From NCBI GenBank assembly GCA_017445995.1, contig JAFSRT010000023.1, positions 1 to 64,000 on the forward strand: DNA of 64,000 nt. The letters are read 5' to 3'. The DNA comes from Clostridia bacterium (GTDB lineage: Bacteria; Bacillota; Clostridia; Christensenellales; Borkfalkiaceae). Shown here in pieces: positions 24,371 through 24,821 of this stretch; positions within the stretch are counted from its first letter, which is position 1, and each line of letters begins with the position of its first letter. The notes under the pieces were generated by a model. That model was not told where the DNA came from and did no database searches. It saw nothing but the letters and a program-made list of their open reading frames with translations. The translations under genes were made by a program, and so were the position numbers.

Positions 24371-24411
24371 AGAGAACGGTTTTGCCCGTATAGGGGTTCA
24401 ACTCGTTCTCT
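24371..24411 (-). terminator. Terminator-like hairpin after hairpin unit A
   Basis: Stem GAGAACG/CGTTCTC (24372-24378 with 24404-24410), long loop with an inner CCC/GGG pair, and a T-rich minus-strand tail (TTTTTCTTTT). Confidence 0.6.
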
Positions 24412-24413
24412 AC

Positions 24414-24526
24414 TGGTGCGGATGAAGGGACTTGCTTCTCTCGAGCCTCCCGATAAACTGTCCACAGGACAGTTTAGTCCTTCGGACAAATTGCCTGCGG
24501 CAATTTTCTCCTAATTCAAGTCCCTT
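24414..24526 (-). repeat. tRNA-Leu-derived multi-hairpin unit A
   Basis: On the minus strand the 113-base unit begins with an inverted copy of the tRNA-Leu T-arm (AAGGGACTTGAATTAGGAG) and ends with the exact tRNA-Leu 3' end including CCA (AAGTCCCTTCATCCGCACCA). The two ends form a closing stem. Between them lie three perfect hairpins: 24455-24475, about 24477-24486 (TTCG loop) and 24488-24506. Unit B has the same architecture with different stem sequences. I know of no named family for it. Confidence 0.75.
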
Positions 24527-24532
24527 TTCTTA

Positions 24533-24573
24533 CAAAACAAAAACTTTTCGTCCAAATGAACGAAAAGTTTTCG
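24533..24573 (-). terminator. Terminator after hairpin unit B
   Basis: A 12-bp perfect stem (24540-24551 with 24560-24571, AAAACTTTTCGT) two bases beyond the CCA of unit B, with a T-rich minus-strand tail. Confidence 0.75.
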
Positions 24574-24690
24574 TGGTGCGGATGAAGGGACTTTCGCCTG
24601 TGCGACCTTCCCGCAAAATAGTCCACTGGACTATTTTCTTGCCAAATGGCAAGCACGCCGTAAACGGCTGGCTCCTAATTCAAGTCCCTT
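24574..24690 (-). repeat. tRNA-Leu-derived multi-hairpin unit B
   Basis: A 117-base unit with the same inverted T-arm start, the same TTAGGAG, and the same 3' end with CCA as unit A. Its inner hairpins are 24615-24637 (AAAATAGTCC stem), 24638-24653 (CTTGCC stem) and 24657-24668 (GCCG stem). The stem sequences differ from unit A while pairing is kept. It sits directly downstream of the real tRNA-Leu and its terminator. Confidence 0.75.
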
Positions 24691-24703
24691 CTACGAATAA
24701 CAC

Positions 24704-24730
24704 AAAAAAACGACAGGAAAACTCCTGTCG
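24704..24730 (-). terminator. Terminator of tRNA-Leu
   Basis: Stem CGACAGGA/TCCTGTCG (24711-24730) eight bases after the tRNA CCA, followed on the minus strand by seven T. Confidence 0.9.
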
Positions 24731-24738
24731 CTTTATTG

Positions 24739-24821
24739 TGGTGCGGATGAAGGGACTTGAACCCCCACGGTCGCCCAATAGATCCTAAGTCTATCGCGTC
24801 TGCCAATTTCGCCACATCCGC
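24739..24821 (-). tRNA. tRNA-Leu (anticodon TAG), CCA encoded
   Basis: An 83-base cloverleaf: acceptor GCGGATG pairs with CATCCGC, D-arm GGCGAAATTGGCAGACGC, anticodon loop CTTAGGA (TAG), a class II variable arm, T-loop GTTCAAG and an encoded CCA. It reads CUN leucine codons, mainly CUA. Its last 20 bases recur in the two downstream hairpin units. Confidence 0.95.

Follow-up and report, generated by a model that had tools for sequence, protein, structure and literature searches.

The tRNA-Leu(TAG) Locus

The window, a 64,000-nt stretch of a contig from a Clostridia bacterium of the family Borkfalkiaceae, carries on its minus strand a tRNA-Leu(TAG) gene followed by two gene-less units, each of which closes with a copy of the 3′ end of that tRNA. 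Read along the minus strand, the tRNA gene comes first, then unit 1 (24574-24691), then unit 2 (24414-24527), each of the three followed by a terminator-like hairpin, with the following parts.

24739-24821, minus strand: tRNA-Leu(TAG) gene (ARAGORN; Rfam RF00005, 57 bits)
24704-24732, minus strand: terminator-like hairpin and T-run 3′ of the tRNA, read from the sequence (fold -18.8 kcal/mol, z -5.8)
24679-24691, minus strand: unit 1 arm I, GAAGGGACTTGAA, the reverse complement of tRNA positions 54-66
24594-24678, minus strand: unit 1 core, with box TTAGGAG, hairpins P1-P3, box GCGGG, and hairpin P4 (TCGCACAGGCGA type)
24574-24593, minus strand: unit 1 arm D, AAGTCCCTTCATCCGCACCA, tRNA positions 57-76
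24537-24573, minus strand: terminator-like hairpin 3′ of unit 1 (fold -19.9 kcal/mol, z -6.5)
24515-24526, minus strand: unit 2 arm I, AAGGGACTTGAA
24435-24514, minus strand: unit 2 core, with box TTAGGAG, hairpins AAATTGCCGCAGGCAATTT, GTCCGAAGGAC, and TAAACTGTCCTGTGGACAGTTTA, box TCGGGAGG, and a P4 loop CGAGAGA
24414-24434, minus strand: unit 2 arm D, CAAGTCCCTTCATCCGCACCA, tRNA positions 56-76
24366-24411, minus strand: terminator-like hairpin 3′ of unit 2 (fold -17.7 kcal/mol, z -4.3)

Both units follow one plan, in which an inverted arm (arm I, the reverse complement of approximately tRNA positions 54-67) leads into a core of about 80 nt with four hairpins, followed by a direct arm (arm D, positions 56/57 to 76 with CCA) and a terminator. 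Positions 54-76 of tRNA-Leu(TAG), the sole tRNA called at the locus by ARAGORN and Rfam, are the source of arm I and arm D alike. The last 20-21 nt of the gene are repeated in copies ending at 24574 and 24414, and 92-98 nt upstream of each direct copy lies the inverted copy, 12-13 nt of T-loop and T-stem 3′ strand. Unit 1 is 118 nt long and folds with a z score of -4.7 against shuffles, and unit 2 is 114 nt long with a z score of -3.9. A first-pass annotation of this DNA had described tandem tRNA-Leu(TAG) 3′ ends at 24739, 24574, and 24414, an inverted T-arm copy opening each unit, and a terminator-like hairpin after each 3′ end. That anatomy is real: its coordinates and lengths are right, and a strong hairpin with a T-run follows all three ends.

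At one edge of contig C7 (L014), an orphan 3′ end of tRNA-Leu(GAG) is followed by the same terminator and adjoining DNA as unit 2 (24366-24411); the tRNA-Leu(GAG) gene proper lies on contig C6. Elsewhere in the window, positions 53265-53424 of the plus strand hold an M-box (ykoK leader) magnesium riboswitch scoring 97.6 bits.

Distribution among tRNA Genes and Genomes

A BLASTN search of the window's own genome returned 16 further places, a few of which are parts of the window locus or other tRNA genes. When all 37 tRNA genes of that genome were read, units were found behind eight of them: Leu(TAG), Leu(CAG), Leu(CAA), Gln(CTG), Ser(GGA), Thr(CGT), Ala(CGC), and Lys(TTT). A covariance model, R1, matches 35 of the 44 genomes of the genus and 12 of the 18 genera of the family; it scores unit 1 (24574-24691) at 119.2 bits, although unit 1 is also among its training sequences. 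Units occur behind 22 isoacceptors in all, and their presence among the genus genomes is patchy between sister species by the R1 search. Many of the units that R1 finds in other genera of the family are longer, at about 148 nt, and the core grows from about 80 nt in the window to about 115 nt in sister genera. With the wider model R2, matches extend to four genomes from other families of the class, which have different cores built to the same plan. Exact core matches in named records come from uncultured gut and rumen Clostridia. Concerns that the units might be confined to a single locus or be an artefact of assembly were settled in favor of the finding, the latter because the unit recurs in dozens of independent assemblies.

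The arrangement of the arms is also far from what chance would supply. An inverted copy of at least 9 nt and a direct copy of at least 12 nt, at the right spacing, occur at 56 of 142 distinct tRNA loci, a set enriched for units in that many loci were fetched via units (the survey of the window's own genome alone is unbiased), and the same pattern occurs in none of 14,200 dinucleotide-shuffled downstream regions. Class II tRNAs, those with a long variable arm (Leu, Ser, and Tyr), account for 33 of the 56 unit loci as against 9 of the genome's 37 tRNA genes, an over-representation (Fisher p 0.0013) that carries the same sampling caveat.

Other hairpin-rich DNA also lies behind tRNA genes. Units that we call type B, at L009 (G000:C10 near 77,600), L019, and L181, have arms and position as in the units described above (type A) but a different core, consisting of a hairpin, a box AGCGGCTGACCGAAG, and a long hairpin with TTTTGCAAAGC; type B and type A units adjoin each other behind one and the same tRNA. 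In genome G015, five loci (L163, L169, L170, L173, and L177) have hairpin-rich DNA behind tRNAs with an inverted T-arm or a D copy and with unrelated cores, one example being CGCGATTGACCGC...GCGGTAGCAATCGC.

Shared Cores and Fitted Arms

The arms of each unit match the tRNA behind which it sits. Across 66 units and 22 isoacceptors, the identity of arm D is 95.5% with its own tRNA and 59% with other isoacceptors; for arm I of the same 66 units the figures are 88% and 61%. The own tRNA is the top match of arm D in 65 of the 66. Position by position, arm D agrees with tRNA positions 57-76 at 91-100% and is kept up to the CCA at 91-95%. Arm I agrees with positions 54-65 at 80-100% and falls to chance level by positions 68-69.

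The cores behave differently from the arms. In 24 pairs of units that sit behind different isoacceptors, core identity is 90% or more, against 30-75% for the D arms. The best of these pairs lies within the window's own genome, where the core of unit 2 and the core behind tRNA-Leu(CAG) are 99% identical (98% by BLASTN) and the arms differ. Near-identical cores with differing arms indicate that the cores move and that the arms are re-made. The suggestion in the first-pass annotation that the units may be a miniature mobile element is supported on several counts, in that they are gene-less, dispersed behind many tRNAs, patchy among species, and built on near-identical cores behind different tRNAs.

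Individual units give some view of how the two arms relate to each other. A unit behind tRNA-Leu(TAG) in genome G033 has its own D, but its arm I and the preceding bases are identical over 17 nt to the corresponding arm I stretch at tRNA-Leu(CAA), about 900 bp off; this unit is one possible intermediate. In another single unit (L102), D differs from the tRNA by one base and arm I follows D. These two single observations agree with an order in which D is joined first and arm I is fitted after. Taken over all positions where D and the tRNA differ, arm I splits 18 versus 7, a mixed result in which several of the 18 lie in RtT (the Escherichia coli repeats discussed below) or are confounded by neighboring tRNA genes. 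Comparison of a mismatched arm I with a large tRNA library says little of its donor, as the best library member always scores well, whichever the donor.

The length and end point of arm D call to mind a retro-element, with reverse transcription starting at the tRNA CCA, proceeding to the T-loop, and then switching to a core RNA. Arm D is as long as such copying of a tRNA 3′ end as far as the T-loop would make it, and it ends at CCA. However, the reverse transcriptase family RVT_1 (PF00078) has 0 matches in the window's own genome, which is 96% complete, and occurs in 5 of the 44 genomes of the genus without any link to the presence of units, and we consider such an origin highly improbable.

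Base Pairing in the Core Hairpins

The core hairpins covary strongly. Among 85 distinct units, 22 of the 26 base pairs vary on both sides, a number reached by none of 500 shuffles. The variation is restricted to Watson-Crick combinations: helix P3 has 827 Watson-Crick cells, 0 G-T, and 5 A-C, and the core hairpins overall have 0 G-T in 837 cells. A set of 205 hairpins found without a model contains 1,581 Watson-Crick pairs, 0 G-T, and 1 A-C internal mismatch, although the procedure that found them disfavors mismatches near the loop and at the stem ends. The tRNAs of the same loci offer a comparison, with G-T at 36 of 854 pairs of the acceptor stem and 76 of 610 pairs of the T stem (4-12%). Pair changes in RNA helices usually pass via G-U pairs. 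Strong covariation without G-T therefore leads us to infer that the palindromes form and stay perfect at the DNA level, and the result points to DNA hairpins rather than selected RNA. As a counterpoint, the absence of G-T is also expected of a young, rapidly homogenized palindrome. The pattern carries a wider caution, that covariation lacking G-U pairs is not proof of a functional RNA.

These stems bear on the possibility that the unit is a structured small RNA with a decoy or regulatory role, either co-transcribed with the tRNA or made by read-through, and released, in the manner of RtT RNA, by cleavage at the CCA of arm D. Arm I pairs with arm D in such a molecule and could pair with the T-arm of the tRNA were D missing. 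The constant multi-helix architecture, the conserved unpaired boxes, the retention of D to the CCA (91-95%), and the terminator behind each unit would all suit an RNA. So would the precedent of RtT, which is annotated as processed from the tyrT transcript and which is reported, by citation in PMC4986893, to be a real transcript released from tRNA transcripts that modulates the stringent response. Against these points stand covarying stems without the G-U pairs seen in the tRNAs of the same loci, cores common to unrelated tRNAs, and a distribution that is patchy in sister species and, for RtT, ranges from 0 to 2 copies among E. coli strains. We judge a selected small RNA to be an unlikely explanation. 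The proposal in the first-pass annotation of a structured RNA that borrows the tRNA end is weakened by the same stems, and searches with the window and the units found no Rfam family that fits the units. The unit may nonetheless be transcribed, as RtT is in E. coli. A guide-RNA idea, with D as a 20-nt guide and GTTC as a PAM-like motif, was abandoned, since the two arms pair with each other within one molecule and D stays faithful up to the CCA.

The boxes at the feet of the hairpins raise the question of a REP-like element moved by an HUH (Y1) transposase. Many units have GGAG before P1 and GGAG or GTAG before P4, and other forms occur too (GGGG, GTAT). Boxes of this kind at the 5′ foot of P1 and P4 resemble the REP tetranucleotide, and hairpins limited to Watson-Crick pairs would be in keeping with such a mover. 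Yet the Y1 transposase family PF01797 has 0 matches in the same 96% complete genome and is found in only 6 of the 44 genomes of the genus, unrelated to unit presence, which makes this a very unlikely source of the units.

Junctions and Tandem Copies

Copy number changes in tandem, from the two units in the window to the RtT units behind E. coli tRNA-Pro, of which there are 0, 1, or 2 by strain. The unit-less E. coli sites were considered as ancestral empty sites and rejected as such, as the first part of a unit is still there; the strains that keep a partial unit are therefore deletions. A comparison of tRNA loci between genomes G000 and G015 gave shared or rearranged loci and no clean empty site, and no clean pair of a filled and an empty site turned up elsewhere.

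The terminator is duplicated in 10 of 57 loci, whereas the terminators behind the tRNA and behind D are unrelated in the other 47. Simple duplication of the target site suits two loci (L127 and L130) and was rejected as a general account because the terminators are mostly unrelated (47 of 57 loci).

Several loci show other rearrangements at the same positions. Between G000 (L015) and G015 (L086 and L087), tRNA-Thr(CGT), its first terminator, and the unit are near-identical, but beyond D one of the two copies in G015 carries other DNA, as though recombination had taken place at D. At L019 (G000:C19), L039, and L084, putative large serine recombinase genes, so named from their sequence, end directly at a tRNA 3′ end that has the terminator and the unit behind it, as if these putative elements inserted between tRNA and unit.

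The first-pass annotation had also raised serial integration at a tRNA attachment site. By this account the units are scars of integration and excision by a prophage, an integrative and conjugative element, or a satellite at a T-loop att site, with the core as a reduced attP. The idea accounts for the direct copy, in that the start of D at T-loop position 56/57 would suit a T-loop crossover and D renews the 3′ end of the tRNA. Putative serine recombinase genes and other element ends at several of the same tRNA genes, along with the excess of class II tRNAs (33 of 56 loci versus 9 of 37), might be added on its side. The inverted arm and the re-targeting of the arms to each tRNA are left unexplained, however, the cores are gene-less, and the unit is absent from the phage and plasmid collections searched and from the viral contigs scanned by exact pattern. 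Integration scars seem to us a rather improbable origin.

Interpretation and Proposed Mechanism

We read the units as a mobile, gene-less, non-autonomous DNA-hairpin repeat, similar to RtT, that colonizes the 3′ ends of tRNA genes, and we give this reading as a whole a probability of roughly 0.55. The description itself, a mobile core with fitted arms and palindromes kept at the DNA level, is firm; the route of movement set out here is a proposal. The moving part is the core, which comprises two boxes and three or four near-perfect palindromes. At a new site, a second copy of the resident tRNA's 3′ end would be attached to the core at T-loop position 56/57 to give arm D, and arm I (the inverted T-arm) would be synthesized or repaired by copying D within the hairpin. 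The 20-nt direct repeats would then permit tandem gain and loss, and the whole unit can snap into one branched hairpin on single-stranded DNA.

Movement would most likely follow a DNA-level route, through template switching of replication or recombination intermediates at the T-arm. Template switching in replication creates and mends hairpin stems (PMC8794818). The faithfulness of D to the CCA is a counterpoint, as switching alone does not require it, and this fidelity could mean selection of a tRNA-like 3′ end. A trans-acting recombinase could perform the joining, although our analysis identified no such recombinase or other mover.

Comparison with Known Systems

The closest known thing to these units is RtT (RF00391), the repeats of E. 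coli tyrT and tyrV annotated as the small RNA RttR. RtT has so far been regarded as an RNA gene and as an oddity particular to the tRNA operons of Escherichia and related bacteria. Like the units, RtT lies downstream of a tRNA gene in tandem, and each repeat closes with the last 18-19 nt of the tRNA including CCA, just as the window units close with the adjacent tRNA 3′ end and its CCA. Also as in the units, an inverted T-arm copy stands about 100 nt ahead of the tRNA end, with perfect small-loop hairpins (GTTGCCGCAGGCAAC, CCCGAAGGG) between. At E. coli tyrV there are three RtT repeats, the inverted T-arm is GGGGAAGGAT, and the last 19 nt of the tRNA come 100 nt after the start of the inverted arm. 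RtT is found behind tRNA-Tyr and tRNA-Pro with arms fitted to each, the tRNA-Pro case occurring in both E. coli and Salmonella; our literature search, which covered few of the older RtT papers, found no paper on these fitted arms. The two systems differ in core sequence, in that the inverted arm and core of RtT also contain parts of the 5′ half of the T-arm, and in range, with two tRNA species for RtT against 22 isoacceptors for the clostridial units. The window gave no RF00391 match at the gathering cut-off of 45 bits and the units gave none at E values up to 10, whereas true RtT loci score 99-137 bits. The window units are thus RtT-like in anatomy and outside RF00391 by the family's own test.

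E. coli RtT seems to represent a proteobacterial branch of such repeats, next to the clostridial one. Extending this likeness, we tentatively propose, at somewhat less than even odds, that parasitic DNA hairpins form a broad class, with a clostridial and a proteobacterial (RtT) branch, whose members spread among tRNA genes and have their termini remade for each target, D from the target T-loop to the CCA and I by hairpin-templated copying. We know of no transposon family that re-templates its own ends on each target. The data suggest that RtT is one branch of a widespread tRNA-attached DNA repeat that tailors its ends to each gene. The origin of RtT would then become testable, and mobile sequences would gain a new case of target-templated ends. 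There would also be a further reason why the DNA behind tRNA genes, a landing place of genomic islands as well, is variable.

Three other systems share parts of this design. REP and BIME sequences, which go with RAYT (a Y1 transposase), are likewise non-autonomous intergenic DNA hairpins in many copies, with GGAG/GTAG-like foot boxes such as many units show beside other forms; in the units, by contrast, arms copied from the adjacent tRNA enclose several hairpins, and the Y1 transposase is absent from the genome. Integrative elements at tRNA att sites have the same direct repeat of the tRNA 3′ end from the T-loop, but the units have no integrase or other gene, they possess an inverted arm, and one core serves many tRNA targets. 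Finally, integron attC sites and the folded attP of CTX phage have inverted arms about 90 nt apart that give one branched single-stranded hairpin, as in the units, with the difference that the arms of the units follow the target tRNA.
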